In this document: positions 6,029-63,721 of the stretch, in pieces | How positions within the stretch are numbered: position 1 is the stretch's first letter | Layout of the letters: each line of letters begins with the position of its first letter | Source: Salinimicrobium sediminilitoris | GTDB taxonomy: Bacteria > Bacteroidota > Bacteroidia > Flavobacteriales > Flavobacteriaceae | Length of the DNA: 64,000 bases | Direction: 5' to 3' | Assembly (NCBI RefSeq): GCF_020866905.1 | Contig: NZ_JAIVCC010000005.1 | Span: 422,088-486,087, forward strand | Program-made: the position numbers and the translations under genes | Notes under the pieces: model-generated | What the model saw: the letters and a program-made list of their open reading frames with translations, nothing else | The model's database searches: none | What the model was told of the DNA's origin: nothing

Positions 6029-6041
6029 AAATGTCATTTTG
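6029..6041. repeat. AAAATGNCATTTT palindrome, intergenic copy
   Basis: The sequence is AAAATGTCATTTT with center T. It lies 5 nt beyond the stop codon of the lipoprotein gene at 6046-6414. It is one of 11 exact copies in the window. Confidence 0.8.
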
Positions 6042-6045
6042 GGAA

Positions 6046-6414
6046 CTATTGGTTTAGAGGCGCTCCCACAGGAATTGAACAGTCATGCCCCGGTTCTCCA
6101 TGTGCAGGATTCACGCTTGGGGTTTGATCTACCCTAATAGGCGAAACCGAAGTTGATGGCAACTGGCTGGTAGGAGTAGGGTTGGGAGTACTTCCCGCAC
6201 TGGCATTCAATGGTGCCCCAACCGGAAGATCACACCTGTGGCCCGGCAAACCATGAGCAGGGTTCACCTGTACTTCTTCGGTTCCTTCGGCTTTAGAAGT
6301 GGTTTCGGTAGTTTCCTGTGGTGTAGCTTCGGCAGTCTTCTCTTCGTCTTTGCAGGAAACCATAAGGATCAATCCCAGGACAACTATGATGTAATTAAGC
6401 TTTAAATTTTTCAT
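6046..6414 (-). CDS. Small lipoprotein with duplicated NPAHGxPGHxCxxPVGAPLN motif
   Basis: This 122-residue protein has a lipoprotein signal (LGLILMVSC, lipidated Cys21). A Thr/Glu-rich linker follows, then two copies of a near-identical 20-residue block, at about 52-71 and 102-121, separated by a Pro/Thr/Ser-rich spacer. Each block carries His-x4-His and Cys in the order H, GHxC. The protein ends right after the second block. I do not recognise a characterised function. The conserved His/Cys set could bind a metal or heme, or be a surface-attachment motif (inference). It lies 6 nt downstream of the DUF1028 gene and is probably cotranscribed with it. Confidence 0.75.
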   Translation of the reverse strand: MKNLKLNYIIVVLGLILMVSCKDEEKTAEATPQETTETTSKAEGTEEVQVNPAHGLPGHRCDLPVGAPLNASAGSTPNPTPTSQLPSTSVSPIRVDQTPSVNPAHGEPGHDCSIPVGAPLNQ

Positions 6415-6420
6415 TTCAAT

Positions 6421-7413
6421 TTATTTTATGAGGTTCAGTAATTCTTGTGACGGGATGTTAAGGAGCCCTGCAGACGGTAATCTACGGGGCATTTCCTTCC
6501 AGTTTTCATCTTCTTTAAAAACAGCTTCAAAAATGGGTTTTGCTTCGTCCATTCTTCCGCTGTTTGCGAGTGCTACTGCAGTCCAGTACTGCATTTCCAG
6601 GTTATCGGGAAACAATTCCATAGCATTCCCATATTCTTCCAGGGCTTTGTCTACTTTATTCGCTTCCATTGCCAGGTCACCCCGGTTCATGAATTCATAG
6701 GCGCGGGCAACCTTCAGCAAACGTTCAAGTTCTACCAGGGGTTGTTCATGATCGTCCACGCGAAGGTCGATCTTTTTTTCTTCCCATGCATTCTCCACTT
6801 TCTTGGGACCAACAACCAGGATTGCAGCCGACTGACTTCCGCGGATATCTCCCCCGGCAGCCTCGGCAGCCTGAAGCACTTTTAAGACTCTTTCGGCCAG
6901 TGGTAGTTTGGCATTGTCTAGGAATGCCTTTTGCATAGCAGGAACTACAGTGGCATTGAGCATCATATTAGCCTGAACGGAATAATTTTGTCCGGTGATA
7001 TGATCTGCAGCTTCCACGCAGTTTTCGCCCGTATGTGCAGCAGTGTTTCCTGAAGTATCCAAAAATGCCACCTGGCGGTACTCTTTTCCTTCATCTTGTG
7101 CCAGCAAAATACCTAATGCTTCTGAAGGTTGTTTCCCCTGTTCCATTAGCTCCAGCCCTTGAGGCCCATAAGCCGGGTTGACAAAGGATTGGGTTGCAAC
7201 CACTCCCACCCCCGATTTTCCCCAGGACACAATTGAACCAACAGAAAACCAGTGACTCTGTACTCCCACAGCCATTTCTCCGGTTTCCGCATCTCTTGCC
7301 ACTATGGAATAAGTATGTGCAAAAGCATCTTTCATGATCTCAGGATTTTTAGTCTGAGAATATACGGAAGTGCAGCAAAAGATGGCAAGTAGAGAAAGGA
7401 TCTTCATGATCAA
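6421..7413 (-). CDS. Secreted DUF1028 (Ntn-hydrolase-like) protein with TPR-like tail
   Basis: The 330-residue protein starts with a signal peptide (MIMKILSLLAIFCCTSVYSQ; Met3 is an alternative start). Residues about 30-215 match the DUF1028 family, which has an Ntn-hydrolase-type fold: 'HTYSIVARDAETGEMAVGVQSHWFSVGS', 'GVGVVATQSFVNPAYG' and 'GGDIRGSQSAA'. The last 110 residues look like tetratricopeptide helices (AYEFMNRGDLAMEANKVDKA, NLEMQYWTAVALANSGR). DUF1028 enzymology is not firmly established; amide hydrolysis is the inferred chemistry. The tail suggests a protein partner. The downstream gene, 6 nt away, is the His/Cys-motif lipoprotein. Confidence 0.85.
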   Translation of the reverse strand: MIMKILSLLAIFCCTSVYSQTKNPEIMKDAFAHTYSIVARDAETGEMAVGVQSHWFSVGSIVSWGKSGVGVVATQSFVNPAYGPQGLELMEQGKQPSEALGILLAQDEGKEYRQVAFLDTSGNTAAHTGENCVEAADHITGQNYSVQANMMLNATVVPAMQKAFLDNAKLPLAERVLKVLQAAEAAGGDIRGSQSAAILVVGPKKVENAWEEKKIDLRVDDHEQPLVELERLLKVARAYEFMNRGDLAMEANKVDKALEEYGNAMELFPDNLEMQYWTAVALANSGRMDEAKPIFEAVFKEDENWKEMPRRLPSAGLLNIPSQELLNLIK

Positions 7414-7511
7414 ATAATTTTTTTAAATGTAATAAATATTCCTTTATCGGCTTTTCATACTTCCTTCTCTAAAATTTTAGGATTAAAGACCGATAACTTA
7501 TCGGAAGTTTT

Positions 7512-7519
7512 TAAATTTG
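7512..7519 (+). promoter_or_regulatory. Putative -7 box for tRNA-Arg
   Basis: TAAATTTG matches TAnnTTTG and ends 10 nt before the tRNA 5' end. Confidence 0.5.
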
Positions 7520-7529
7520 CACCCCATCC

Positions 7530-7601
7530 GGCCTCGTAGTTCAATGGATAGAATAGTAGTTTCCTAAACTGTAGATCCAAGTTCGATTCTTGGCGAGGCT
7601 A
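7530..7601 (+). tRNA. tRNA-Arg (CCT)
   Basis: A 72-nt cloverleaf: acceptor GGCCTCG pairs with CGAGGCT (one G-U pair), the D arm is GTTC/GAAT, the anticodon loop TTCCTAA reads CCT, and the T arm is CCAAG/CTTGG around TTCGATT. The anticodon stem has two wobble pairs. The discriminator is A. A terminator follows. Confidence 0.93.
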
Positions 7602-7623
7602 CTTTAATTTTTAAAGTTAATAC

Positions 7624-7658
7624 AACCCTGTTGATCTTGTTTTGACAGGGTTTTTTAT
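7624..7658 (+). terminator. Terminator after tRNA-Arg
   Basis: AACCCTGT pairs with ACAGGGTT across a 12-nt loop and is followed by a T run. Confidence 0.75.
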
Positions 7659-7694
7659 TCTGAACAGTTGAGAGTTTCACAAGAAAATTTACAT

Positions 7695-10950: not shown

Positions 10951-10963
10951 ATTTAAACCTAAA

Positions 10964-13990: not shown

Positions 13991-14009
13991 TCAAAAATGC
14001 CATTTTTGA
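13991..14009. repeat. AAAATGNCATTTT palindrome, 19-bp extended copy
   Basis: TCAAAAATGCCATTTTTGA is a perfect palindrome around a central base. It lies between the convergent sulfur operon and SDR gene, just beyond the terminator at 13952-13981. Confidence 0.85.
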
Positions 14010-14976: not shown

Positions 14977-17900
14977 CTAATATTTAAAGTTGAGCATAAC
15001 GCTTATACGGTTTCCGTCACCACCGTGATAGAGTCCGATGTTTCCGGTTAGGGCCAAACCGGCACTAACCCAGAAAGAACCACCATAGTTGTTGTGCCAT
15101 TGTTCTGAATCTTCCCCGGGTGTCCAAACCCGGCCGTAATCGAATCCGGCAGTGACACCATACACAAAGGGAACAAAACTATTTTCCCAGATTCCGAGCG
15201 CTGTTCTCAAATCTGTACTGTGGTAAAATGCCTGTTTTCCATTGAAACGGTGATTTCGATAACCCCTAAGGCTGCGATTTCCTCCAATTGTGGCAGCGTG
15301 GTAGATTTCATAATCATCTCCAAAGATCACTTCTCCTCCAAGTTTTGAGGCAATGACTGCGTAACCGCTGGGAATAAGCGGGTAATTAAAAGAAACGGAA
15401 GGCTCCAGGTAAGCAAATTCATTTCCAGTACCGTCTATACTCTTTTTGTAACCTGTTGTAACCCGAACATTAGATCCCAGACTGGGATAGGCTGCGTTGT
15501 TTTTGCTGTAGAACCTGTAATTAGCTTCCGCTCCGGCATATAACTGCCTGTCAAAAATGTCATTTTCGGGAGATAATAATTGTCCCAGATAAATATCCTG
15601 CTCATATTTTACCTTGATGGATTCGATCATGGTTCTGAAATCAAAAACACTTCCGGCGTCATTTCGCCAAATTAATGATGGGGAAAAATGCCATTTTTCG
15701 ATCCTTATTCGGTTGAAGTCTTTGTCTACTTCATTGCTGTAGTATTGGCTTTCCGATCCACTTCCGAAGTAATTGAGCGTGTAGTTAGGACTGTTATAGC
15801 GTGCAGTAATGCCAAAGTTCCAGTTATTGAAGAGGTGGGCAAACTCTCCATCATACCGTAGAGAAAATCCATTGGTAGCAAAGTAGTAATTGGCCAGAAG
15901 TTCATGTTGTGTTTGGAAAGGGTTGTTCACCAGCCCATACTTCGTCCAAACCGCTTCTGCACCGAGAGTAAAACCTGCATCGGTTTCAAAGTTGACATAG
16001 GGCATCGCTTTGAACGTGCTGTATTTGAATTTTTTATAGTAGAAGTTGTTGATCTCGTATGAATCTACCAACAACTTTCGCGATCCCGGCTGTAAAATTT
16101 CACTTTCTGAACTTTTAAAGTCATAGAGCTTTACCTTTCTTTTATTCTGAAAGTCGTAAACATCCTTTCCCGGACCTCCCAAAGTTCTTATCCTTACCAG
16201 ATCATCGCCAGAACCGGTGACACTAAAAGTGTCCTCTCCTGCCATGCCGTAGATCCAGATGTCCTCTGTCTCTTCTGAATTATATGTTTTTCTGAAGATC
16301 TCTTCGCCTTCAGATATTTGGACGATTTCGGTATTTCCATCTTCCTTTCGTGTGATCTTGAAATTCTCATCTTCATCTGTACCTGTGATCACAGTAAATT
16401 CATGCATGTGCTCGTAGTATTCGCGGGCGATATCCATTAAATTCCCACGACGACCCTTCAGCTTTTGTTTGATCTCTTCTATACTCTGGTCCTGTGCTGC
16501 TGCCGGTAACTCGGCAAAAGCAGCTTCAATTTGTTCATCTGAAATCGTGTTTTGAATGAGTTCCACCTGCTCCTCCCATTGTTCCCAGTTACTTTTAAAC
16601 AGGATCTGAAGGTCTAAAGGATAACCTGACCAGTTGAACCATTCCACACTGTCAATATCTTCGTCAAAAGTCTGCATCTTTCGAAGGTTTGGCACCGCAA
16701 GCTTAATTAACCGAATGAGCGGGCCATCATATTTTGAGAAAGATTGATCCCGGTCCCTGGGAATAGGCACATAAAGCTTTTCCCCATTTTCTTCATACTC
16801 GGCCCAACGCCAGTTGTCCTGGTGACGGTCCCAGTCGCCAATCAACATATCAAACAACCTGGCTTTTATATATTCACTTTCAGCAACGCTGGCCTGAGGA
16901 TTTTCCCGAAGCTCTTCTAAAAGATCAAATGAACTCAGGATCTCCTGTGGCTTTTCGAATTGTGCAAATGACTTGTTCTCACTCCCCGCATGGGCCTGCA
17001 ATTCATAAAGCTCATCGCCATATTCATCATTATGAATATCCAGTGCAGGCTGGCGCGGCACATAATAGATATCGGGTTTTATGTGAGGCAGGTCAAGAGC
17101 TTCAGCAAAATTATCGAGTGCAAATTTTGCATATGGATGGGAGGTGGTGAAGTAGTCTTTAACCAACCTTTCCGGCAGCGTGTTGTTGATCCTGTCTCCT
17201 ACATAGGAGGTAGGAAGAAGATCGGCTTGTATGTATTGCGAAGGACTTTTTCTCAGGGCCCGTAGTGTATATTCGTTTTCATCTTCATTTATAAACCTAA
17301 TGGAACGGGATTGTTGCCCGCCTCCTTCTTTTAGAGGAGTGAGGCCGCCATGAATGGTATCAAGGAGCAATACAGGAACTTCGATCCTGGTGTTGTAAAC
17401 CTCCCGGTAGTGGTCCCCCCATAGAAAACGATAGACTCCGCTTTTGCTGGTCTCTTCGGAAGTATAAATAGAAGCTGAAAATGTATCTTCCAGTTCTTTC
17501 CATTGCTCCCCTTCCAGGTCTATTTTGGTATTTCTTTCCCGCGGAATTGTTGTGCTAAATAAAAGCTCTTCAGCTGATTCTTCAACTTTAAAGAACTTCA
17601 CTTCAGAATTGCCATTTTTGAAGATTGTTAATTTTGCGTAGCCGGGTTCTTGAGAGGCGAAATGACTATCTTCTTTAGCTTTGGCAGATTCTGTTTTTGC
17701 CGCAGTAGCGCTTATGATCTGGGGATTTCTGTCATTGGTGAGATATTGCAGGTTCCGATCATTTCCAGAGACAAAGATCACGTCGTCAAACTGGCTTGCA
17801 AGGGTTTCGAGTCTTTTCCGGAGTTCACGATACAAAGGATTGTCAAAATTTTGACGGGAAAAAGGAAAGACGTTATTTAAAAAGCCTGAAGTTGATGAAC

Positions 17901-18576
17901 TCAGCATCGGGTGATGTACAGCAACTATTTTAACCTTCCCAAAATTATCTTTTAAGGCATCTTTTACTTCTATGAAAAATCTCTCTTTGGTTCTAATGTC
18001 GCAATCCACATTAAAATCACTACTGCTGTCCCAGTCTTCCAGGTACCATTGAGAATCTACAGTAATGAGGGCAATCTCTTCGTTAATTTCAACGTCTTCA
18101 ACAGGACAACCATCATCTGGTATAAACTCGCGGTCGCTGTTTTCCTGTAAAAAACTTTCCAGGTCGTCCAGACTTTGAGGGGCAGATTCGTTCCATTCGT
18201 TTACTCCTGGTACAAAAATGATGTTTCCATTAAAGTTTTTGAGAGGTTGTAAAAGTTGCTTTCTAAGAAATTCCTGTGCCTGTTGCCTTTTTTGATCTCC
18301 CTCGGGATATCCCATTTCTTTTGTTATATTTCCCAAAAGTAGAAGGGAAGCGCAGGAATCATTCCTGGACGCTTCTGAAATTTTTTCCAGAAGAGCAGGA
18401 GTGGCCATGTCTGCACCCGGTCCTGTGTTTGAAAGAATATAAAAGGAACGGGAAATAGCTAAAGAGTCGTCTTTTTGTTCTTGTGCCAGGGAAGAAACCG
18501 ACAACAAAAGGAAGAAAAAAAAGGGAATATAAATAGTTCTGAAAAATAGAATGGGGGATACCATGTTTGGGATCAT
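14977..18576 (-). CDS. Outer-membrane protein: degenerate phosphoesterase + kinase-like domain + Omp85 barrel
   Basis: The 1199-residue protein has a signal peptide (about 1-32). Residues about 40-300 align with calcineurin-like phosphoesterases, but the metal-site motifs are altered: LGN (81-83) for GD, GVNEW (124-128) for GN[HD], HHP kept at 221-223, and GNDRN (271-275) for GHxH. Residues about 480-700 contain a kinase-like active-site pattern, 'GDWDRHQDNW' (580-589) then 'PRDRDQ' (606-611), resembling the catalytic and metal loops of HipA/Fam20/CotH-type atypical kinases. The last about 340 residues are a beta barrel with the Omp85/surface-antigen motif 'GNRSLRGYR' near 1096. Related proteins are usually annotated 'metallophosphoesterase'. 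The function is unknown. Two exact AAAATGNCATTTT palindromes lie inside it. Confidence 0.8.
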   Translation of the reverse strand: MIPNMVSPILFFRTIYIPFFFFLLLSVSSLAQEQKDDSLAISRSFYILSNTGPGADMATPALLEKISEASRNDSCASLLLLGNITKEMGYPEGDQKRQQAQEFLRKQLLQPLKNFNGNIIFVPGVNEWNESAPQSLDDLESFLQENSDREFIPDDGCPVEDVEINEEIALITVDSQWYLEDWDSSSDFNVDCDIRTKERFFIEVKDALKDNFGKVKIVAVHHPMLSSSTSGFLNNVFPFSRQNFDNPLYRELRKRLETLASQFDDVIFVSGNDRNLQYLTNDRNPQIISATAAKTESAKAKEDSHFASQEPGYAKLTIFKNGNSEVKFFKVEESAEELLFSTTIPRERNTKIDLEGEQWKELEDTFSASIYTSEETSKSGVYRFLWGDHYREVYNTRIEVPVLLLDTIHGGLTPLKEGGGQQSRSIRFINEDENEYTLRALRKSPSQYIQADLLPTSYVGDRINNTLPERLVKDYFTTSHPYAKFALDNFAEALDLPHIKPDIYYVPRQPALDIHNDEYGDELYELQAHAGSENKSFAQFEKPQEILSSFDLLEELRENPQASVAESEYIKARLFDMLIGDWDRHQDNWRWAEYEENGEKLYVPIPRDRDQSFSKYDGPLIRLIKLAVPNLRKMQTFDEDIDSVEWFNWSGYPLDLQILFKSNWEQWEEQVELIQNTISDEQIEAAFAELPAAAQDQSIEEIKQKLKGRRGNLMDIAREYYEHMHEFTVITGTDEDENFKITRKEDGNTEIVQISEGEEIFRKTYNSEETEDIWIYGMAGEDTFSVTGSGDDLVRIRTLGGPGKDVYDFQNKRKVKLYDFKSSESEILQPGSRKLLVDSYEINNFYYKKFKYSTFKAMPYVNFETDAGFTLGAEAVWTKYGLVNNPFQTQHELLANYYFATNGFSLRYDGEFAHLFNNWNFGITARYNSPNYTLNYFGSGSESQYYSNEVDKDFNRIRIEKWHFSPSLIWRNDAGSVFDFRTMIESIKVKYEQDIYLGQLLSPENDIFDRQLYAGAEANYRFYSKNNAAYPSLGSNVRVTTGYKKSIDGTGNEFAYLEPSVSFNYPLIPSGYAVIASKLGGEVIFGDDYEIYHAATIGGNRSLRGYRNHRFNGKQAFYHSTDLRTALGIWENSFVPFVYGVTAGFDYGRVWTPGEDSEQWHNNYGGSFWVSAGLALTGNIGLYHGGDGNRISVMLNFKY
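15554..15566. repeat. AAAATGNCATTTT palindrome inside the Omp85-fusion gene
   Basis: The copy is AAAATGTCATTTT. On the coding strand it is read as E-N-D-I-F. Confidence 0.8.
15683..15699. repeat. AAAATGNCATTTT palindrome, 17-bp extended copy in the Omp85-fusion gene
   Basis: GAAAAATGCCATTTTTC is a perfect palindrome. It is read as E-K-W-H-F-S, a different frame from the copy 130 bp away. Confidence 0.8.
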
Positions 18577-37999: not shown

Positions 38000-38030
38000 G
38001 AGTCTCAAAAATGTCATTTTTGGGACTCTT
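38000..38030 (+). terminator. Hairpin with embedded AAAATGNCATTTT palindrome
   Basis: GAGTC...GACTC arms extend the palindrome CAAAAATGTCATTTTTG (38006-38022), with one T-G pair between them. TTCTTTTT follows. It lies 7 nt after the second GH3 stop and before the last GH16 gene, so it may attenuate the operon. The 15-bp core is at 38007-38021. Confidence 0.75.
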
Positions 38031-38942: not shown

Positions 38943-38985
38943 AAAATCCTCTCCAAAAATGTCATTTTTGGAGAGGATTTTTTTA
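38943..38985 (+). terminator. PUL terminator, 39-bp perfect palindrome with AAAATGNCATTTT core
   Basis: The arms run 38943-38961 and 38963-38981 and are exactly complementary (19 bp), with one central T. The core AAAAATGTCATTTTT is at 38955-38969, extended by TCCTCTCC/GGAGAGGA, and a T run follows. It lies 18 nt after the final PUL gene. Confidence 0.93.
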
Positions 38986-39083: not shown

Positions 39084-39533
39084 TTAATTCAGATTCCTCC
39101 TTTCAATAAAGAAACGCTTCAAAAGTTCTGAAGCTTCCTCCTCTAAAATGCCATTTTTAACCTTCGTCTTTGGGTGCAGTTTTCCTCCCATTTTTCTGTA
39201 GCCCCGTTCTGGATCTGAGGCTGCAAAAACCAGGTTGGAGATCTGGCTCCAGTACAGCGCCCCGGCGCACATTTGGCATGGTTCCAAAGTAACATACATG
39301 GTGCAGTCGATGAGGTATTTTCCGCCAAGGAAATTTGCGGCAGAGGTAATAGCCTGCATTTCGGCATGAGCGGTTACATCATTAAGAAGTTCTGTAAGGT
39401 TATGGCCGCGGGCGATGATCTGTTGATTTGCCACGATCACCACACCTACAGGAATTTCCCCTTTTTCATAGGCTTGCTGCGCCTCCTCTAAAGCCTTCCG
39501 CATAAAATAGCTGTAGTCAAAAACTAATTGCAT
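39084..39533 (-). CDS. tadA: tRNA adenosine/nucleoside deaminase (TadA-like)
   Basis: I set the start at 39533 (MQLVFDYSYFMRKALEEA). The longer frame to 39578 would run across the dxs promoter and start. The 149-residue zinc deaminase has 'HAEM' (His zinc ligand, Glu proton shuttle) near 55 and 'PCQMCAGAL' (two Cys ligands) near 85. The C-terminal 'RRNLN' helix is typical of TadA, which converts A34 to inosine in tRNA-Arg(ACG). Another small-molecule nucleoside deaminase remains possible. It is divergent from dxs with a 38-bp gap. The AAAATGNCATTTT palindrome lies at 39145-39157. Confidence 0.88.
   Translation of the reverse strand: MQLVFDYSYFMRKALEEAQQAYEKGEIPVGVVIVANQQIIARGHNLTELLNDVTAHAEMQAITSAANFLGGKYLIDCTMYVTLEPCQMCAGALYWSQISNLVFAASDPERGYRKMGGKLHPKTKVKNGILEEEASELLKRFFIERRNLN
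39145..39157. repeat. AAAATGNCATTTT palindrome inside tadA
   Basis: The copy is AAAATGCCATTTT, within TAAAATGCCATTTTTA. On the coding strand it is read as K-N-G-I-L. Confidence 0.8.
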
Positions 39534-39557
39534 ATTCAAAAATACAATTTCAAAATG

Positions 39558-39565
39558 TACCTTTG
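39558..39565 (+). promoter_or_regulatory. Putative -7 box of dxs
   Basis: TACCTTTG matches TAnnTTTG and ends 6 nt before the ATG at 39572. The mRNA would therefore be nearly leaderless, which argues against the upstream TTG as start. Confidence 0.45.
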
Positions 39566-39571
39566 CACAAC

Positions 39572-45323: not shown

Positions 45324-46667
45324 TTAAATTTTCAAGCCTTTAAACTTTTTAAATGAGGCAACAATATTGCTGTCGGTTAAAGAGGAAATATAGCTACATG
45401 TCTTAATTAGCTTGTCATATACCGGTAAATCTTCAAAGTGACCCGCTTCGGGAATTAGTTTAAGCACCAGTTTGTTGTAATTGGTTTGTTCCCCATTCAC
45501 TGGAAGTAAGGCATCTGTATAAGTGTCGAGAAGGTGAGACAGCATTTGGTAACCGGCAATTTCCTTACTTATCACCTCTTCACTCTGGTAGATCTTATCA
45601 ATACTTATTTTGATGATATCGGTTATTTGCGCTTCATATTTGCTCCTGTCAAATAATGCCTCATGGAATTCCCCTTTTAAGATGGCTTCTTCATATTGCA
45701 TAAAGATCTCCACGGCTTCTGTAAGAAGAGTATTAATTGCTAAAGCCCTTAGATAACTAAGCCTGTCTGCCCGGGTTTGCAGATTGTGGTATTTCTCGGT
45801 AATTATTGAATCTTTTACCAGATTGATCAAATATTCCAGCGCATATTCCTCCTGAATAAGCCCCAAATTGATCCCGTCTTCAAAATCTATGATGGTATAG
45901 CAAATATCATCGGCTGCTTCCACAAGAAAGGCGAGGGGATGCCTGCAGTAACTAATATTCTTTCCCCTACTCGTGGAAATAAGTCCCAGTTCCTGTGCTA
46001 CCTCTTCAAAAAAGGCTTTTTCTGACTGAAATATTCCAAACTTCTTATCGGCTATTCGCGAAGTGGGTTTATGCGGAAGGGATTCCTTGGGGTATTTTAT
46101 AAAAGCTCCTAAAGTAGCATATGAAAGCCTTATGCCGCCGGGAATGCCGGGGCGATCTTCTGTGAGGATTTTAAAACCATTGGCATTACCTTCAAATTTC
46201 GTTAGATCCTGAAATTCTTCAGGTGTAAGCATTTCCTGAAACCTTTTTCCATTGCCATTGCTGAAGTATTCGCCAATAGCCTTTTCACCCGAATGCCCAA
46301 ACGGCGGATTCCCAATATCATGTGCCAAAGCAGCAGCGGCTACAATTGCGCCAAAATCATTCATCTGGTAGCCATGGGTCTTTTCCAGCTGCGGATGCTT
46401 CTCCAGGATCTTTTGCCCGGCAAGCCGACCTAAAGAACGCCCTACTACAGAAACTTCCAAACTATGCGTGAGGCGGGTGTGAACAAAGTCTGTCTTTGAA
46501 AGCGGAATCACCTGCGTTTTATCCTGCAAACTCCTAAAAGCTGAAGAAAAAATGATACGATCATAATCCACTTCAAAACCTAACCGGGTCGCATTTTGTT
46601 CTTTTCGTAATCTTTTATTCGTGTCTCCTGCTTTTCTCAGCGAAAGCAGCTGCTCCCAGTTCATCAT
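45324..46667 (-). CDS. dgt: dGTP triphosphohydrolase-like dNTPase
   Basis: The 447-residue HD-domain protein has the expected order: 'RIIFSSAFRSLQDKTQVIPL' near 35, 'RLTHSLEVSVVGR' (His ligand), 'AAALAHDIGNPPFGHSGE' (HD pair, about 113-130), and a later metal-binding 'VEAADDICYTIIDFEDG' near 250. It hydrolyses dNTPs to nucleoside and triphosphate, helping balance the dNTP pool. Start is Met1 or Met2. It lies 53 nt upstream of the T9SS cargo gene on the same strand. Ribonucleotide reductase lies beyond the repeat region. Confidence 0.9.
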   Translation of the reverse strand: MMNWEQLLSLRKAGDTNKRLRKEQNATRLGFEVDYDRIIFSSAFRSLQDKTQVIPLSKTDFVHTRLTHSLEVSVVGRSLGRLAGQKILEKHPQLEKTHGYQMNDFGAIVAAAALAHDIGNPPFGHSGEKAIGEYFSNGNGKRFQEMLTPEEFQDLTKFEGNANGFKILTEDRPGIPGGIRLSYATLGAFIKYPKESLPHKPTSRIADKKFGIFQSEKAFFEEVAQELGLISTSRGKNISYCRHPLAFLVEAADDICYTIIDFEDGINLGLIQEEYALEYLINLVKDSIITEKYHNLQTRADRLSYLRALAINTLLTEAVEIFMQYEEAILKGEFHEALFDRSKYEAQITDIIKISIDKIYQSEEVISKEIAGYQMLSHLLDTYTDALLPVNGEQTNYNKLVLKLIPEAGHFEDLPVYDKLIKTCSYISSLTDSNIVASFKKFKGLKI

Positions 46668-46803
46668 TTGGTATATTTTTTCAGTAAAGCTTCAAAAATA
46701 AACAATGAGCAATAAACAATAATCAATTAACAGGTAATAAAAAAGAAAGCATCAAATTCCAGGCACCAAATTCCAATTTGGCGATTAAAAAGGAAGTGAT
46801 AAC

Positions 46804-46861
46804 GATTGTCATTTCGACAGAGCAACTGCTTTTGGGAAAAAGGACATACGACGAGAAATCT
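46804..46861 (+). repeat. Repeat unit A, copy 1 (GTCATTTCGACAGAGC type)
   Basis: About 58 bp beginning GATTGTCATTTCGACAGAGC and ending GACGAGAAATCT. The opening resembles a dispersed repeat common in Flavobacteriia genomes (recalled, not searched). Confidence 0.75.
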
Positions 46862-46863
46862 GT

Positions 46864-46935
46864 CATTGGAGAACAGTCTTGAGGTTTTCCGGAGAAGTAA
46901 TTTTATAAACTTTGGTAAATCTACTTTCAATCTTG
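46864..46935 (+). repeat. Repeat unit B, copy 1
   Basis: A 72-bp unit starting CATTGGAGAACAGTCT and ending CTTTGGTAAATCT plus ACTTTCAATCTTG. It is nearly identical to 47225-47296. Its end carries the TTTGGTAAATCT terminal sequence found in unit C. Confidence 0.7.
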
Positions 46936-46958
46936 AACTGTAAAAATGAAGTGAAAAC

Positions 46959-47016
46959 GATTGTCATTTCGACAGAGCGTCTGCTTTTGCGAAAAAGGAG
47001 ATGCGACGAGAAATCT
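46959..47016 (+). repeat. Repeat unit A, copy 2
   Basis: Almost the same as copies 1 and 3 (GCGTCTGC in place of GCAACTGC). It is joined directly to a unit C. Its left flank (GAAGTGAAAAC) is also shared with copy 1. Confidence 0.75.
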
Positions 47017-47023
47017 TTTTGAA

Positions 47024-47104
47024 AGATTTACCAAAGTCCCTTTCATCAATACTTGGTGAACGATTAGCTTATTTGTGAAGATGGTTTAAAACTTCGGTAA
47101 ATCT
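47024..47104 (+). repeat. Repeat unit C, copy 1 (81-bp inverted-end element)
   Basis: It begins AGATTTACCAAAGT and ends ACTTCGGTAAATCT; the ends are inverted repeats with one mismatch. It pairs with 47301-47381 and resembles the diverged 80-bp element at 5177-5256. Confidence 0.7.
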
Positions 47105-47164
47105 GAAGCGTGCAACATGCAACCTGGAACAGAAGAACCCGCAACTCCTAAAGTTAATATCCAA

Positions 47165-47221
47165 ATTGTCATTTCGACAGAGCAACTGCTTTTGCGAAAA
47201 AGGAGATGCGATGAGAAATCT
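47165..47221 (+). repeat. Repeat unit A, copy 3
   Basis: About 57 bp, from ATTGTCATTTCGACAGAGC to GAGAAATCT. It is followed at once by unit B copy 2. Confidence 0.75.
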
Positions 47222-47224
47222 TTT

Positions 47225-47296
47225 CATTGGAGAACAGTCTAAAGGTTTTCCGTAGAAGTAATTTCATAAACTTTGGTAAATCTACTTTCAATCTTG
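47225..47296 (+). repeat. Repeat unit B, copy 2
   Basis: The same 72-bp length as copy 1 with only a few substitutions. It is followed 4 nt later by unit C copy 2. Confidence 0.7.
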
Positions 47297-47418: not shown

Positions 47419-49836
47419 CTACGACCCGCACATCAAACAATCATCTCCTTCTGCTTCTTTGGAGCTGGCAATAAGGGCTCGGAGCTCTTCCGGACTCAGA
47501 GAGGTTCCCTCAGGAACCGGTATAGTCGATGGTTTTGGTGCTTCAGCAGGAATTTCTTCTTTCTTTTCCTCTTTTGCCAGGGTAAATTTGATGGCGTCAA
47601 CCGCACTTTTGGTACGCAGGTAGTACATCCCGGTTTTTAGTCCGCTTTTCCAGGCGTAGAAGTGCATGGAGGTGAGTTTGCCGTAATTCGCATTTTCCAT
47701 GAACAGGTTGAGCGATTGGGATTGATCAATAAAATAGCCGCGGTGACGGGACATATCAATTATGTCCTTCATACTTAGCTCCCAAACAGTTTTGTAGAGC
47801 TCTTTAAGATCATCTGGAATTACGTCTATATTCTGCACAGAACCATTGGATCGTAAAATGGCATTTTTGACATTCTCTGTCCAAAGGTTTCTTTCTACTA
47901 GGTCTTCCAGTAAATGCTTGTTCACCACAATAAATTCGCCTGAAAGTACGCGACGGGTGTAAATATTTGAAGTGTATGGTTCAAAGGCTTCATTGTTTCC
48001 AAGGATCTGTGAAGTGGAAGCAGTGGGCATAGGCGCCACTAAAAGGGAGTTGCGAACGCCATTTTTGAGCACCTGTTTTCGCAGTTTTGCCCAATCCCAT
48101 CTTCCGCTAAGGTCTTCATCATTGATCCCCCACAAATTGAACTGGAACTGACCTTTGCTCATTGGTGAACCTTCATAGCTTGAATAAGCTCCTTCATCTT
48201 TGGCCATTTCCATAGATGCAGTAACTGCAGCAAAATATAGCGTTTCAAAGATCTCCTGATTCAGCTTTTTTGCTGCGTCACTGGTAAATGGAAGTCTTAG
48301 TTTGATAAAAGTATCAGCCAGCCCCTGGACTCCAAGCCCCACAGGGCGGTGCCTGAAATTGGAGTTTTCGGCTTCCTTCACGGGATAGAAATTTCGGTCG
48401 ATCACCTTGTTGAGGTTGCGGGTAACTCTTTTAGTGATCCTGAACAGCTCCTTGTGATCGAATTCATTCCCTTTGATAAACATGGGCAATGCGATAGAAG
48501 CCAGATTACACACTGCAACTTCATCTTCACTGGTATATTCCAGGATCTCTGTACAGAGGTTTGAGGAACGGATGGTGCCAAGGTTCTGCTGATTTGACTT
48601 CCGGTTGGCAGAGTCCTTGTACAGCATGTAAGGCGTGCCGGTTTCGATCTGCGACTCCAGGATCTTCTCCCACAGGTCGCGCGCTTTTATTGTTTTACGA
48701 CCTTTGCCTTCAGCTTCATATTTTAAATATAGTGCTTCAAATTCATCGCCGTGGATGTCATAGAGTCCGGGGCATTCGTGCGGACACATAAGTGTCCAGC
48801 TTTCATTCGCTTCCACCCGTTTCATAAAAAGATCGGGCACCCACATCGCATAGAAAAGGTCGCGGGCACGCATTTCTTCTTTTCCATGGTTCTTTTTGAG
48901 GTCCAGAAAATCAAAAATATCGGCATGCCATGGCTCTACATAAATTGCGAAAGAACCTTTACGTTTTCCGCCACCCTGGTCTACATACCGCGCCGTGTCA
49001 TTGAACACCCGAAGCATGGGCACAATCCCATTGGAAGTTCCGTTGGTTCCGGAAATATAAGAACCTGTAGCTCTCACATTGTGAATAGATAAGCCAATTC
49101 CGCCGGCAGATTGTGAGATCTTGGCAGTTTGTTTCAGCGTATCATAAATGCCATCAATGCTGTCGTCTTTCATGGTGAGCAGAAAGCAGGAAGACATTTG
49201 CGGCTTTGGCGTTCCCGCGTTAAAGAGAGTAGGCGTGGCGTGGGTGAAATATTTCTTGGACATGAGCTCGTAAGTCTCAATAGCAGCCTCAATATCATCG
49301 GGATGTATCCCTATGGAAACCCTCATGAGCATGTGCTGAGGTCTTTCAGCGATCTTTCCGTTGATCTTCAGTAGATACGAACGCTCCAGGGTTTTAAAGC
49401 CGAAATAGTCGTACTGGAAATCCCGGTTGTAGATGATCGTGGAATCCAGGAGCTCCTTATTCTGCTGAATCACCTCATAAACATCATCGGCCAAAAGGGG
49501 GGCTTTCTGACCGGTGCGGGGGTTTACATACTCATAAAGATCTGTCATCACCTCCGAAAATGTTTTTTTGGTGTTCTTATGCAGGTTAGAAACCGAAATC
49601 TTGGCGGCAAGTTTAGCATAGTCCGGGTGAGAAGTGGTCATGGTGGCTGCGATCTCGGCAGCAAGGTTGTCCAACTCACTTGTGGTTACGCCATCATATA
49701 ATCCTTCGATCACTCTCATTGCCACCTTAACAGGATCGACAAGCTCGTTTAATCCATAGCAAAGTTTTTTGATCCTTGCGGTGATCTTATCGAACATTAT
49801 GGGTTCTCTGCGGCCGTCTCTTTTTTCTACGAACAT
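47419..49836 (-). CDS. nrdA: Class I ribonucleoside-diphosphate reductase, alpha subunit
   Basis: The 805-residue catalytic subunit converts ribonucleoside diphosphates to deoxyribonucleotides. It has an N-terminal ATP-cone ('[20 protein letters not shown]', about 1-90), which allows dATP/ATP overall control. The barrel contains '[21 protein letters not shown]', 'SNLCTEI', '[13 protein letters not shown]' and '[24 protein letters not shown]'. The redox-active C-terminal tail ends CLMCGS (Cys-x2-Cys), expected to be reduced by thioredoxin. nrdB lies 109 nt upstream on the same strand, so the order is nrdB-nrdA. An AAAATGNCATTTT palindrome lies inside. Confidence 0.95.
47855..47867. repeat. AAAATGNCATTTT palindrome inside nrdA
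   Basis: The copy is AAAATGGCATTTT; the coding strand reads it as K-N-A-I-L. A half-site (GCCATTTTTGAG) occurs in the same gene at 48057-48068. Confidence 0.8.
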
Positions 49837-51165: not shown

Positions 51166-51178
51166 AAAATGCCATTTT
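51166..51178. repeat. AAAATGNCATTTT palindrome at the end of the Gfo/Idh gene
   Basis: AAAATGCCATTTT ends on the first base of the TTA that is the minus-strand stop codon, so it sits immediately 3' of the gene. Confidence 0.8.
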
Positions 51179-52266
51179 TAGAGGGGTTGTATTTCGAGTC
51201 TTTTCCCTCCTGCAGCAGCCGATTCGTAGATCTTTTCGAGCACAATTATATCTTTTAATCCATCTTCCCCTGGAGCGATCATTGGCCGGTCATTTAGAAT
51301 GGCCAGGGCATCATCATCCATCTGTACCGCCTGTTGATTTTTGCCCATGGGTGGCAGGATTTTACCATCGCTGGTTCCTCCTTTTACCCCGCTGTAAGAT
51401 TGGAAGGGCTGTAAATAATAAGAGCCATCGCGGCAGGAGATCTCCAGGTTGTTCATGTTTTCCCCGAAGCTTGTGCGGCAGTGAGCAGTAATTCCATCGG
51501 GAAACTCGAGGGTGAATTCCATAGTTTCATCAACTTCACTAAAAAGTTCGGGCCTGCTGGTCGATGACTTCGCCGAAACTGCAATGGGTTCCCTGCCCGT
51601 GGAGTAGCGGGAGGTATTTAGAGGATACACTCCCATGTCGTACATGGCGCCGCCGCCCATATCCGCTTCTGTACGCCAGCCGGGATTACTGCTGAAGAAA
51701 CCTGCCTTGGCCGTTAAATTCTGAATGCTGCCATAAGGATTCGTCTCTGCCCACTTCATCATTATGCGGTTATTCTTTTCATGCTGAAGGCGATATCCTA
51801 TAGCCAGTTTGACTTTATTCTTTTCGCAGGCAGCAATCATTTCCCGGCATTCTTTGGCATTCATTGCCATAGGTTTTTCGCACCATACATGTTTTCCTGC
51901 ATTGGCCGCTATGATGGAGTATTTTGCGTGCATTGAATTTGGAAGTACGATGTAAATGACATTAATATTGTCATTTTTGGCAATCTCGTGCATGTTCTCA
52001 TAATTGTAGACATTGGCATCGGGAATGTTGTATTTTTCCTGCCAACGCGGAATTTTTTCGGGACTGCCCGTTACGATACCGCGGAGTTCACAATACTCCG
52101 TTTGCTGCAAGGCAGGAGCAAGTTGGTGTGTGCTGTAGCCTCCAAGACCGACAAGGGCTACGCCTAACTTTTTTTTACCTCCCGCAAAAAGTATGTTGGG
52201 AATAGGTAAGCTTAGGGCGGTTAGTAATAAACCCGATTTTTTAAGGAATGTGCGACGGTTGTCCAT
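51178..52266 (-). CDS. Exported Gfo/Idh/MocA-family oxidoreductase
   Basis: The 362-residue protein starts with an apparent Tat signal ('MDNRRTFLKKSGLLLTALSL', twin Arg at 4-5). The NAD(P)-binding domain begins 'KLGVALVGLGGYSTHQLAPAL'. 'VWCEKPMAMNAKECREM' contains the conserved EKP motif near 130, and the C-terminal beta-sheet domain includes 'MGGGAMYDMGVYPLNTSRYSTG' near 210. Tat export implies folding with cofactor before secretion, as in glucose-fructose oxidoreductase. The substrate is probably a sugar or sugar derivative. It is a single gene. Confidence 0.88.
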   Translation of the reverse strand: MDNRRTFLKKSGLLLTALSLPIPNILFAGGKKKLGVALVGLGGYSTHQLAPALQQTEYCELRGIVTGSPEKIPRWQEKYNIPDANVYNYENMHEIAKNDNINVIYIVLPNSMHAKYSIIAANAGKHVWCEKPMAMNAKECREMIAACEKNKVKLAIGYRLQHEKNNRIMMKWAETNPYGSIQNLTAKAGFFSSNPGWRTEADMGGGAMYDMGVYPLNTSRYSTGREPIAVSAKSSTSRPELFSEVDETMEFTLEFPDGITAHCRTSFGENMNNLEISCRDGSYYLQPFQSYSGVKGGTSDGKILPPMGKNQQAVQMDDDALAILNDRPMIAPGEDGLKDIIVLEKIYESAAAGGKRLEIQPL

Positions 52267-54981: not shown

Positions 54982-55175
54982 AAATCCTCATTTATTTTTT
55001 ACTTGTACTGGCCGCAGGCCTCATTGTATATAACGCAACATTTTTAGACTTCCAAGACACCTTTTCGGGAGATAGTAAAACAGCCTTAATAGGTATACTT
55101 GCTTCGAGTATTGTTGTGGTTCTCATGGTGATTCTTCTTATGTCCAGGGCGATATCCAAGAAGAGTGGAGAATAG
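54978..55175 (+). CDS. Small two-helix membrane protein
   Basis: The 65-residue protein is mostly two hydrophobic helices (about 3-21 and 33-56), separated by a short polar loop 'DFQDTFSGDSK' and ending in basic 'SRAISKKSGE'. I do not recognise a family. Its start overlaps marC by 4 bp and its end overlaps the next gene by 11 bp, which supports it being a real gene in a coupled operon. Confidence 0.75.
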   Translation: MKILIYFLLVLAAGLIVYNATFLDFQDTFSGDSKTALIGILASSIVVVLMVILLMSRAISKKSGE

Positions 55176-55782
55176 GGATTTTGATGCTCTTATTGTAGGT
55201 GGTGGTGCGGCAGGTCTATCCTGCGCCCTATTACTTGGGTCTGCTCTTTCCAAACCATTTTGTGCAGATAAAAGAGTAGGTATTATTGCGCATCAACGTG
55301 CGTCGCATCTTTCCAGTGCTTTACTTAATAATGTGCTGGGTGTACCTGCGGGTTCTGCGGGGAAAGATATTCTTTCTTCAGGAGTGCAGCAGCTGGAAAC
55401 TCTTTATCCGGAGGTGGAGATCATTCAGAAAGAAAAGGTGCTGAAAATGACATTTTCAGAAGGTAAATTCCAAATTCTCACGAATAAGAATTCTTATACT
55501 TCTTCAATAGTAGTTTTAGCTACGGGATATGCCAAACCCTTCACTATTGATGGCCTGGAAGAATATCTCGTGCCTCATAAAAAATCAAAACCCTCAAAAG
55601 ACAGGGTCCAGCTTTCAAATATGGATCACTTTGTAAAGCCGGGTCTCTATGTTGCCGGCTCCCTGGCAGGTCACAGGAGCCAGTATGCCATTGCCTGCGG
55701 AAGTGGTGCGGCAGTGGCAACAGATATTCTCACGCTTTGGAATGATGGGGAACAAACAAAGGTTCACGACAAGCTTAAGTAA
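55165..55782 (+). CDS. Short FAD-dependent oxidoreductase (thioredoxin-reductase-like, FAD domain only)
   Basis: The start is GTG at 55165, inside the preceding gene. The 205-residue protein has the FAD motif 'DALIVGGGAAGLSCALLLG' near 8-26, 'VVLATGYAKPF' near 115 and 'GLYVAGSLAGHRSQYAIACGSGAAVATDIL' near 158, the pattern of TrxR-like flavoproteins. The NADPH domain and the CxxC redox pair are absent. 'SSALLNNVLGVPAG' replaces the usual tract. It may use a separate electron donor or act on a small substrate. An AAAATGNCATTTT palindrome (19 bp) lies in mid-gene. Confidence 0.8.
   Translation: MENRDFDALIVGGGAAGLSCALLLGSALSKPFCADKRVGIIAHQRASHLSSALLNNVLGVPAGSAGKDILSSGVQQLETLYPEVEIIQKEKVLKMTFSEGKFQILTNKNSYTSSIVVLATGYAKPFTIDGLEEYLVPHKKSKPSKDRVQLSNMDHFVKPGLYVAGSLAGHRSQYAIACGSGAAVATDILTLWNDGEQTKVHDKLK
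55441..55459. repeat. AAAATGNCATTTT palindrome, 19-bp extended copy in the FAD gene
   Basis: CTGAAAATGACATTTTCAG is a perfect palindrome about one base. It is read as K-M-T-F-S, yet another frame. The core is 55444-55456. Confidence 0.85.
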
Positions 55783-61398: not shown

Positions 61399-61857
61399 AT
61401 GAAGAAGATTGCTCTTTTATTTATGTTCACCTTATTATTGGCCGGTTGTGATATCGAAGATGACGGGCCGGGTTCTGTACAGGTTTTAGCTGAAGTGGTT
61501 GATGTAGATCTCCCGGAGTTTTTTGAAAAGGGAAAACTTTATCAAATCAAAGTCACTTATCTTCTGCCCGATGCCTGCCATACCGCTTTGGGATTACAGG
61601 CCATTAGAGGTGGGGCTGAAGACGCTTTGAGAAGGGACATCTATGTTGCCGGCGTGGCGTCATATCCCACAGGACTTGAGGATTGTACCTTAGAAAGTGA
61701 AGACCTTGAAAAAATGGATTCATTTACTCTTAGAATTGATGAAGATCAGCCTTTTACGTTTTATCTTTGGACAGGCGTTGACGCAAACAAGGAGAGTATT
61801 TATACTAAAATAGTCGTTCCCGTAGGGGAGGCTACTCCTACACCTGCCGTCAATTAA
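61399..61857 (+). CDS. Small lipoprotein of unknown function
   Basis: The 152-residue protein has the lipobox LLLAGCDIEDDG (Cys17). It then reads as a small beta-rich domain ('QVLAEVVDVDLPEFFEKGKLYQIKVTYLLP') with Cys residues in 'PDACHTALG' and 'LEDCTLESED' that could form a disulfide. No known domain recognised. It lies 33 nt before the sigma-factor gene. A -7-like box overlaps its stop, so the sigma gene may have its own promoter. Confidence 0.78.
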   Translation: MKKIALLFMFTLLLAGCDIEDDGPGSVQVLAEVVDVDLPEFFEKGKLYQIKVTYLLPDACHTALGLQAIRGGAEDALRRDIYVAGVASYPTGLEDCTLESEDLEKMDSFTLRIDEDQPFTFYLWTGVDANKESIYTKIVVPVGEATPTPAVN

Positions 61858-61862
61858 TTTTG
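61855..61862 (+). promoter_or_regulatory. Putative -7 box of the sigma-factor gene
   Basis: TAATTTTG matches TAnnTTTG. It overlaps the lipoprotein stop codon and ends 28 nt before the GTG start. Confidence 0.4.
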
Positions 61863-61890
61863 AAAAGGTAGAAACCAACATCGTTTTTAG

Positions 61891-62433
61891 GTGGGTCTTA
61901 AAGAACTAGTTCGGCTGTGTAAACAACAGGATAGAAAGGCGCAGGAAAAGCTTTACCGGGATTATTCCCAACAGCTTTTTGTCCTGTGCCTTAAATATTC
62001 GGCGAATTATGAGCAGGCCCGGGACCTGCTGCAGGACAGTTTTATAAAGATCTTTGAGAATATTCAACAGTATAGAGAAAAAGGCACTTTCGAAGGCTGG
62101 ATGACCCGTATAGTGATCAACACGGCTATTAAAAAAAGCAAGAAGAACGGTATCCACCTTAGTATAACCGGGGATATTTTTGAAGAGATTGACGAAGAGC
62201 TGGATGATGAAATTCTATCCCTTGATTTTTTGATAAAAATAATTCAGGAGTTGCCGGATGCTTACAGGCTTGTCTTCAACCTCTATGTAATGGAAGAATT
62301 TTCTCATAAAGAAATTGCCCGAATGTTGGGTATATCCGAAGGAACTTCTAAATCCAATCTCGCCCGTGCCCGCATTAAGCTAAGAGAAAGTATCAAACGT
62401 CATAAAATGACAAATTACCTGAAATCAATATGA
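61891..62433 (+). CDS. ECF-type RNA polymerase sigma factor
   Basis: The start is GTG at 61891. The 180-residue protein has region 2 ('LYRDYSQQLFVLCLKYSANYEQARDLLQDSFIKIFENI', about 22-60) and region 4 ('PDAYRLVFNLYVMEEFSHKEIARMLGISEGTSKSNLARARIKL', about 128-172). There is no region 1 or 3, as in ECF sigma factors. The stop overlaps the next gene's ATG by 4 bp. The paired gene encodes an anti-sigma-like N-terminus, so cognate control is likely. Target promoters are unknown. Confidence 0.9.
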   Translation: MGLKELVRLCKQQDRKAQEKLYRDYSQQLFVLCLKYSANYEQARDLLQDSFIKIFENIQQYREKGTFEGWMTRIVINTAIKKSKKNGIHLSITGDIFEEIDEELDDEILSLDFLIKIIQELPDAYRLVFNLYVMEEFSHKEIARMLGISEGTSKSNLARARIKLRESIKRHKMTNYLKSI

Positions 62434-63674
62434 AAATGGGTAAGGACATCGACAGCATTTATCGGGATCGCTTTAAAGGAGCTAAAGTCCCGCCACCGGA
62501 AGATTCCTGGGAAAATATCCTGTCCCAATTGCCTCAAAAAAGGGAAAAAAGAAAGCTCTTTCCTCTGTGGTTCCAAATTTCGGGAGTGGCTGCTGCTTTG
62601 GCCCTCATCTTTGCTGCGTACCTGCAAAGCCCTACCTTATTTGATAAAAAGGATGATGTGGTTGTGACGCCTGTTACAAAAGAATTGAATATGATTCCTT
62701 TGGATGCTTCAGAAACTTTTAATGAGGTGATGAGAGAATCGGAAATAATTCTTCAGGTTTTGATATTGCAAAATTGGCGGGCACAACATCAGGAAAACGA
62801 CTATCAATTTGCTTCAGCAAGGGAGGAAAATTCGGAAAAGATAAATAATTCAAATGGTGATTTTTCAAATATCAGGCATGGAGAAGATGCCGAAATTGCT
62901 AATGATAAGGAGGAGCCGGTGGAGGAAAATTTGGTAGCAGAAACAAATTCCGCAGGGGAATTATCTCCGGCAGTTGCATTAGTTCCAAAAGATGATCCCG
63001 ATGCTGTTACTCTTAAAAATGAAAGATCCGCCGAAAAATTTAAATTGACCACCAGGATTGCGCCTGTATATTTCAGTAATATGGGGAATGGTAATGCTTT
63101 GAATAATAGTTTTTCGCCAAAAGAGGCTTCGGGGCAAGTTACTTTTTCTTATGGGGTAAATGTTGCTTATAAGGTTTCCGAAAAGATCAATATCAGGTCT
63201 GGTCTTAATAAGGTGGATCTTGAGTATAATACCCGCGAGGTCTCGTTCAATGATGTAGCCGCTACTAATACTTTTGCCTCAAAAATGGCAGAAACAACGA
63301 CTCTTTCCTCTCCTTCAAATGGAACCTTAAGCCAAAAAATGGGCTTTTTAGAGGTGCCCCTGGAGGTGGAATATGTTCTTATAAATGAAAAATTTGCATT
63401 TGGAATTATTGGAGGTGGCAGTATATTATTTCTCGAAGAAAATGAGCTTTTACTTGACTTTCCGGATAATAAGGCCAATCTTGGGGAGACAAATAACATG
63501 AACAACCTTAGCTACACTACAAATCTTGGGCTTAGTATGGGTTATAATTTATCAAAACAGCTACAGTTAAGTTTGGAACCGGTGGTTAAATTTCAAATGA
63601 ACACTTTTAGGTCTAGCGAAGGACAAACTCCTTATTTCTTCGGGTTATATTCGGGATTTAGCTATAAATTTTAA
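62430..63674 (+). CDS. Anti-sigma-like N-terminus, one TM helix, and OMP-barrel-like C-terminus
   Basis: The 414-residue protein begins with a charged cytoplasmic segment (about 1-45; 'SIYRDRFKGAKVPPPEDSWENILSQLP') of the kind found in FecR/anti-sigma-like Bacteroidota proteins. One membrane helix follows (about 51-69). Then comes a long acidic linker (about 75-200). The C-terminal half (about 205-414) alternates like a PorT/OMP_b-brl barrel ('VTFSYGVNVAYKVSEKINIRSGLNKVDLEYN', ending 'FFGLYSGFSYKF'). The overlap with the sigma gene supports an anti-sigma role. One chain linking inner membrane to a barrel domain is unusual. Confidence 0.8.
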   Translation: MKMGKDIDSIYRDRFKGAKVPPPEDSWENILSQLPQKREKRKLFPLWFQISGVAAALALIFAAYLQSPTLFDKKDDVVVTPVTKELNMIPLDASETFNEVMRESEIILQVLILQNWRAQHQENDYQFASAREENSEKINNSNGDFSNIRHGEDAEIANDKEEPVEENLVAETNSAGELSPAVALVPKDDPDAVTLKNERSAEKFKLTTRIAPVYFSNMGNGNALNNSFSPKEASGQVTFSYGVNVAYKVSEKINIRSGLNKVDLEYNTREVSFNDVAATNTFASKMAETTTLSSPSNGTLSQKMGFLEVPLEVEYVLINEKFAFGIIGGGSILFLEENELLLDFPDNKANLGETNNMNNLSYTTNLGLSMGYNLSKQLQLSLEPVVKFQMNTFRSSEGQTPYFFGLYSGFSYKF

Positions 63675-63706
63675 TTTTTCTGTATTCCTTTAAAGCCAAA
63701 CCTCTC

Positions 63707-63721
63707 AAAAATGGCATTTTT
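63707..63721. repeat. AAAATGNCATTTT palindrome, 15-bp copy before prs
   Basis: AAAAATGGCATTTTT lies 33 nt after the barrel-protein stop, flanked by CTCTC. No strong T run follows. Confidence 0.8.

Follow-up and report, generated by a model that had tools for sequence, protein, structure and literature searches.

Excerpts available from the literature name DNA uptake sequences (DUS) and uptake signal sequences (USS) solely for Neisseriaceae and Pasteurellaceae (PMC1939737; PMC7811141). According to the same kind of excerpts, the observed/expected ratio of known uptake sequences falls gradually with increasing mismatches (PMC1939737), and many neisserial DUSs are argued to spread by recombination, not by point mutation alone (PMC2397512). 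For Riemerella anatipestifer, the accessible part of one report places ComEC (RA0C_RS04895), DprA (RS05130), an outer-membrane protein (RS04915), and an adjacent DUF5689/DUF5017 protein (RS04920, DUF5689) among eight transformation-essential genes (PMC8459023), and R. columbina is reported to favor DNA of its own kind, although the portion of the report available assigns no motif to this preference (PMC7965970). Here, we analyzed a 64,000-nucleotide stretch of Salinimicrobium sediminilitoris DNA (hereafter the window), in which the palindrome AAAATGNCATTTT recurs, and followed this motif through the genus. Because its strong excess occurs only in species retaining DNA-uptake genes, we favor a tag for recognizing and taking up own-kind DNA. 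Judged from sequence evidence, AAAATGNCATTTT is rather probably a DNA-uptake-type sequence of Salinimicrobium, spread by biased transformation. It is apparently the first uptake-type sequence proposed for Bacteroidota; no title or abstract among the open-access matches listed describes the motif or a Bacteroidota uptake sequence, which is a weak form of absence.

The window contains 11 exact copies of AAAATGNCATTTT, against 0.05 expected from dinucleotide shuffles. All 11 copies given in the original prediction are present, although two of its starts were one base too high (6028 instead of 6029 and 13994 instead of 13995), and the roughly thousandfold enrichment that it claimed shrinks to ~220-fold in the window under the dinucleotide-shuffle control. 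As it had described, the central base varies among the window copies and some copies extend as perfect palindromes beyond 13 bp. Six of the 11 do so, reaching 15 bp (63708), 17 bp (15685, 38008), 19 bp (13994, 55444), and 39 bp (38956). Near-matches also exist, but the eight listed carry one mismatch (three), two (three), or three (two), and because their mismatch loads reach two or three, some are weak half-sites at best. The excess extends to the whole genome (G000; 3.59 Mb, 18 contigs), where 225 exact copies stand far above the 2 of the reversed pattern; the window is richer still, with 11 copies in 64 kb compared with ~4 expected from the genome-wide count.

Across 12 Salinimicrobium genomes, the exact counts are 0 (G001), 19 (G004), 34 (S. 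catena, G002), 118, 121, 164 (G008), 191, 201 (G005), 207, 225, 424, and 460, where the G001 and G008 assemblies are 74% and 75% complete, respectively. A family-wide draw of 397 Flavobacteriaceae genomes included 4 of Salinimicrobium, and the 393 genomes of other genera hold 0–20 copies each, with up to 12 of the reversed control. The excess is thus confined to Salinimicrobium, and the earlier proposal of a genome-wide iterated palindrome in the style of the highly iterated palindrome HIP1 is borne out by the genome and genus counts. The highest count outside the genus belongs to G251, with 20 copies compared with 4 of the control. When up to one mismatch is allowed, the counts against the control are 18 vs 15 in G001, 161 vs 85 in G004, 238 vs 36 in S. 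catena, and 417–957 vs 39–65 in the other nine; the resulting ratios are 6.6–16.4-fold in 10 species, 1.9-fold in G004, and 1.2-fold in G001. In a FastTree phylogeny of six concatenated protein sequences, the species form a ladder with G001 deepest, followed by G004, S. catena, G008, and the remaining eight; for G001 and G008, only about one-third of the alignment columns contributed to the placement. No other comparable palindrome or k-mer dialect was found in the low-copy species or at the sister-genus loci; in this comparison, the Christiangramia and Flavobacterium k-mers are inflated because the loci compared are orthologous, and one Flavobacterium locus contains masked N. CTTCNGAAG is ~4–6-fold over-represented in samples from G009, S. 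catena, and G004, mainly within genes and including the competence-less G004. As an alternative motif, it was set aside, being only ~5-fold enriched in three species and chiefly genic.

The anatomy of the motif was resolved in a sample of the single-contig genome G009, comprising 59 of ~176 possible 20-kb stretches. This sample holds 164 copies, compared with 0.78 expected. Thirteen of them form one tandem array (G009:C1 428490-428803, locus L144) of head-to-tail 25-bp units, with AAAATGTCATTTT in each unit and a terminator-like hairpin adjoining; these 13 are excluded from the coding/intergenic and mismatch counts, and the array enters the per-stretch counts as one copy. The motif center must be exactly one base, as 151 copies have a gap of 1, while gaps of 0 and 2–6 yield 0–2 copies. 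For 0–3 mismatches, observed/expected numbers are 151/1, 197/18, 401/224, and 1827/1519, and the enrichment ratio declines from 151 through 10.9, 1.8, and 1.2 to 1.0 at four mismatches; the reversed and scrambled controls are flat. One-mismatch variants, summed over the three at each position, exceed expectation ~22-fold at ±6 and ~15-fold at ±2. Outside the core, a weaker extended dyad is common to genic and intergenic copies, A-A-n-A-S-S-T-K-Y-C-A(AAAATGNCATTTT) plus its mirror image, or AA..ASSTKYC-AAAAATGNCATTTTT-GRMASST..TT. Beyond this consensus, covariation between the left and right flanks is weak at most (intergenic z ≤2.1 out to ±22 and 2.6 at ±23), and this argues for a protein that recognizes the DNA rather than for pairing within RNA. 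Moreover, the two-fold symmetry of the site suggests that its binder is dimeric or two-headed, and a symmetric site would make the tag independent of orientation.

The placement of the G009 copies is equally distinctive. According to our own simple gene finder rather than a curated annotation, 92 of the 151 copies are intergenic and 59 genic in DNA that is 89% coding, corresponding to 0.72 copies per kb of intergenic DNA vs 0.056 per kb of genic DNA (~13-fold). Copies occupy every gene-pair orientation, and 12 lie between divergent genes. Within genes, 41 of the 59 copies are read as K-N-x-I-F/L, with 12 and 6 in the other two frames. Copy density is one per 8–16 kb in G009 and G000, and the G009 copies are mildly clustered along the sampled chromosome. 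The five G009 stretches below 40% GC together gave 2 copies, compared with 2.6 per stretch overall, where low GC is only a proxy for recently acquired DNA and cassette-like arrays are copy-rich. Copy density displays no origin-to-terminus trend in this sample (Spearman -0.04, p 0.75; origin inferred from skew). A replication or segregation mark, one of the roles first put forward, is less favored on this evidence, and a mark of chromosome arms or the terminus was rejected on the same result from the G009 sample.

To describe the turnover of the sites, we compared orthologous loci among congeners. The orthologous sites align without large gaps and are gained or lost mainly through substitutions. 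Between G000 and G006, 14 of 18 alignable G000 sites are intact vs 6.6 expected from flank identity, and conversely, all 14 alignable G006 sites are intact vs 5.8 expected; the DNA compared contained no ortholog for 4 of the 22 G000 sites or for 3 of the 17 G006 sites, which were excluded. In the G000 set, 8 of 216 core positions have changed (3.7%), compared with 30 of 252 in the near flanks (12–13% in flanks) and 5 of 18 at the free center. Collectively, the copies are better conserved than their flanks, and their birth and decay proceed mainly by in-place base changes.

The distribution of the motif follows that of the competence genes. ComEC frames of 648–690 aa are present in 10 of the 12 species. 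In G004, the comEC locus is a short remnant with four stops, lying between NlpC-like and thioredoxin-like genes as in G000 (named by eye), and the 74% complete G001 yielded just an off-target match. DprA frames, of 369–393 aa in nine genomes and 339 aa in G008, occur in the same 10 species; the G004 frame has lost its N-terminal part and ends prematurely, and none was found in G001. Similarly, DUF5689 was found in exactly the 10 genomes positive for ComEC and DprA. Orthologues of the outer-membrane protein are found in these 10 as well, sharing 61–94% identity with the G000 protein over full-length or nearly full-length alignments that start at residue 1, 7, or 12 and end at 933, while G004 and G001 returned just a shared paralogue and weaker matches. 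In G005, the species with 201 copies, the homologue (G005:C3:43688-46486) aligns over its full length with one TAG flagged inside. The outer-membrane protein and DUF5689 protein genes lie side by side in motif-rich species; this Riemerella-like pair was matched by domains and by order and adjacency rather than by aligning it with its Riemerella counterparts, and the N-terminal carboxypeptidase-regulatory domain of the outer-membrane protein scores just under the Pfam cut-off. Collectively, the 10 species with all four competence loci are the 10 with a strong motif excess, and the two species lacking the set, G001 and G004, have the fewest copies (0 and 19), with a permutation chance of 1 in 66.

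The few copies left in G004 were all inspected. Of these 19, our gene finder places 17 within genes and 2 in intergenic DNA, one of the latter in a cassette-type repeat, and the distribution differs from that of G009 (Fisher p 5e-6, with one cassette-type copy dropped). Comparisons of the intergenic fraction omit this G004 copy and five cassette-type copies of S. catena, in addition to 11 on contig G002:C15. Among alignable genic copies, five of seven from G004 are exact at the same position in crown species vs 0.26 expected, and four of six from S. catena vs 0.27 expected, the expectations being computed over every 13-mer in those alignments. As G004 shares these sites with crown species, comparison of the aligned sequences indicates that some sites were probably already present in their common ancestor. 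The simplest history would be gain before G004 branched off, loss of competence in that lineage, and decay of unconstrained copies, with codon-constrained ones surviving. Two cassette-type regions, L279 (G002:C15, 15.1 kb) and L186 (G009, ~2.940-2.948 Mb), contain small unrelated open reading frames (ORFs), mostly on one strand, between ~130-bp inverted-arm repeats; similar repeats occur on G002:C8, and in L279, the motif lies in the spacer of nine cassette-type repeats. In their ORFs and repeats, these arrays resemble integron attC cassette arrays.

If the motif is an uptake-type sequence, naturally competent cells would take up or recombine site-bearing fragments in preference, and point mutations giving rise to a site, or completing an imperfect one, would spread through transformation and allelic replacement where harm is small, that is, in tolerated places such as intergenic DNA, terminators, and tolerant codons. 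The putative sensor is the pair of outer-membrane protein and DUF5689 lipoprotein. This favored role was absent from the candidates that the original prediction listed. The more specific proposal, a palindromic uptake sequence of within-genus origin that is read by a pilus-less Bacteroidota machine (barrel plus DUF5689 lipoprotein, ComEC, and DprA), strikes us as evenly balanced between true and false.

Several observations weigh against an uptake sequence. The association between competence and motif amounts to one or two evolutionary events, because G001 and G004 are neighboring, deepest branches in the six-protein tree, and G001 is a 74% complete assembly. ComEC exceeds the cut-off in 24 of 25 family genomes from other genera, with the motif at background in all of them; it is an old state in the family and not sufficient for the motif, and competence genes alone are thus not sufficient. 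S. catena has all four genes yet only 34 exact copies, though its count with at most one mismatch is 238 vs 36, and 16 of the 34 are on or in cassette-type repeat arrays. Known uptake-sequence species use type IV pili, and the ATPase of the type II secretion system/type IV pilus (T2SS/T4P) type (PF00437) is over the cut-off in 1 of 12 genomes, G003. Known uptake sequences also occur at ~1 per kb, and the Salinimicrobium motif is sparser. Furthermore, a 37-bp profile scan of 17 kb of G004 intergenic DNA revealed no degenerate relics, so erosion there is indistinguishable from never having had intergenic copies; this result is tolerated, not predicted, by the history of gain and loss. Protein constraint may account for some of the shared genic copies, and since motif-free Flavobacterium coding DNA also exceeds the simple background in the 37-bp scan, a genic excess found by this profile is not specific.

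Among other explanations, the binding site of a genus-specific, dimeric DNA-binding protein of the chromosome-organizing or nucleoid-occlusion type, with hundreds of sites, is unlikely but deserves consideration. The long dyad consensus, the fixed one-base center, and the conservation of sites over their flanks and spread along the sampled chromosome all suit such a protein, which would not, however, predict joint loss with the four competence loci, and the flat origin-to-terminus profile of G009 also speaks against it. Alternatively, the site may act not at uptake but inside the cell, serving transformation or repair as a Chi-like or recombination-loading element. The population-genetic evidence fits this equally well, as drive and the link to competence would look alike; we nevertheless find it improbable, given that the outer-membrane pair would not be needed yet tracks the motif, and that Chi-type sites are usually strand-oriented, unlike the symmetric motif here. 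Slightly less credence still goes to an epiphenomenon of the HIP1 kind, produced by an orphan DNA methyltransferase together with biased mismatch repair. An iterated palindrome that is substitution-born and differs between close species does recall the HIPs, as far as the available excerpt describes them (PMC4390886), but 12 specified bases are long for a methylase core, and the preference for non-coding DNA is strong. Additionally, one-mismatch variants are not confined to the outermost bases, being most numerous at ±2 (79) and then at ±6 (50). Because the frequent ±2 variants fall inside ATGNCAT, that heptamer is ill-suited as a methylase core, which makes the methylase site originally suggested less likely.

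A transcription terminator or RNA hairpin module is very improbable. A few copies are indeed cores of terminator-like hairpins (38956 perfect, 38008 near-perfect, and several in G009), and at 38956, G006 retains the core with the outer stem bases altered on both sides relative to G000. Only 2 of the 11 window copies, however, fold below -10 kcal/mol, the pairing covariation of the flanks is weak at most, and 59 of the 151 G009 copies are genic, with 12 others between divergent genes; the weak covariation together with the genic copies ruled out a hairpin or terminator as the general role. Least credible of all are the remains of a small mobile element, such as a miniature inverted-repeat transposable element (MITE) or a repetitive extragenic palindrome (REP). 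Hundreds of genus-restricted copies, some of them carried by cassette-like repeats or by a single tandem array of 25-bp units, might suggest such an origin. Nevertheless, orthologous sites differ mainly by substitutions and lack large gaps, which ruled out a mobile element for the dispersed copies and removes the concern that all are copies of one longer element. Furthermore, the orthologous loci revealed no empty sites in relatives that would mark a discrete insertion, and once its tandem array is set aside, the G009 set contains no conserved unit longer than the dyad consensus.

The 11 window copies and the pilus-type ATPase gene of G003 are listed below.

Table. Positions and settings of the exact motif copies in the window, with the T2SS/T4P-type ATPase gene of G003
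Feature	Position	Strand	Setting
Exact AAAATGTCATTTT	6028..6040	.	Intergenic; conserved in G006
Exact AAAATGCCATTTT	13994..14006	.	Core of 19-bp palindrome, convergent ORFs either side; conserved in G006
Exact copy	15554..15566	.	Within 1199-aa ORF 14977-18576
Exact copy	15685..15697	.	Core of 17-bp palindrome, within 1199-aa ORF 14977-18576; conserved in G006
Exact copy	38008..38020	.	Core of imperfect terminator-like hairpin, directly after ORF ending 37993
Exact copy	38956..38968	.	Center of 39-bp perfect palindrome with T run, terminator-like
Exact copy	39145..39157	.	Within ORF 39084-39578 (deaminase-like, judged by eye)
Exact copy	47855..47867	.	Within ORF 47419-49836 (ribonucleotide-reductase-like, judged by eye)
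Exact copy	51166..51178	.	Stop end of ORF 51178-52266, overlapping last base of ORF
Exact copy	55444..55456	.	Core of 19-bp palindrome, within ORF 55165-55782
Exact copy	63708..63720	.	Core of 15-bp palindrome, after ORF ending 63674
T2SS/T4P-type ATPase gene	G003:C21:22380-23510		Sole such gene over cut-off among 12 congeners

The individual sites have fared differently in related genomes. The copy at 15554 is exact at the equivalent place in G006, G009, and the competence-less G004 (66.7% identity over the alignment), and that at 55444 is exact in G006 and G005 and one mismatch away in G003 and G009. At 47855, the motif is exact in all seven alignable crown-group sequences, the window counted among them and G009, which offers no alignable segment or gene match there, left out; it is inexact in G002, in G004, and in every one of the 10 outgroup loci that could be aligned, although some of these are a single mismatch off. 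Similarly, none of the 16 alignable outgroup loci has the exact motif at the 39145 site. In G006, the 63708 site is intact with one inserted base adjoining the core, the 51166 site carries two core substitutions, and the 38008 site is no longer intact owing to substitutions and small indels. Elsewhere in the window, the protein encoded at 45324-46667 is 96% identical to its Salinimicrobium nanhaiense counterpart, and a second dispersed intergenic repeat, TTGTCATTTCGACAGAGC...GAGAAATCT, lies at 46694-47250 and recurs as numerous partial copies in genomes of the genus.

If AAAATGNCATTTT is an uptake-type sequence, self-recognition in bacterial sex would have originated independently in Bacteroidota, linked to another uptake machine, one without a known sequence-specific receptor. 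Its origin, spread (0, 19, 34, and 118–460 copies), and decay after competence loss would be visible in living species, and the genus would serve as a natural experiment in which selfish drive and a selected tag become testable against each other across a dozen genomes. Among the known systems with which it can be compared, Noc-, SlmA-, and MatP-type sites are short palindromes with many chromosomal copies; the motif differs from these in displaying neither terminus exclusion nor regional confinement in the G009 sample. HIP1 and the alternate HIPs, in the excerpt available, are likewise highly iterated palindromes whose abundance differs between relatives (PMC4390886). However, HIP1 is a GC-rich 8-mer linked to methyltransferases, whereas the present motif has 12 fixed AT-rich bases, differs in its near-match profile, and is linked to competence genes. 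The machinery resembles that of Riemerella, since motif-rich species have ComEC, DprA, and an adjacent pair of outer-membrane and DUF5689/DUF5017 proteins; the Riemerella excerpts, by contrast, show no uptake motif, and the candidates there are just A/T-rich k-mers. The motif also resembles the DUS and USS of Neisseriaceae and Pasteurellaceae, which the accessible portions of two papers describe as many short dispersed copies with a mismatch-load gradient and growth in pre-existing sequence, a preference for non-coding or tolerant coding DNA, no chromosomal orientation bias, and competent hosts (PMC1939737, PMC2397512). The known ones, in the excerpt available, are not palindromes (PMC1939737), whereas the Salinimicrobium motif is a dyad with a variable center in another phylum, and 11 of the 12 Salinimicrobium genomes are without a T2SS/T4P-type ATPase over the cut-off. 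With the DUS and USS, nevertheless, the motif has in common its over-representation, mismatch gradient, change in pre-existing sequence, intergenic density, conservation, and accompanying competence gene set.

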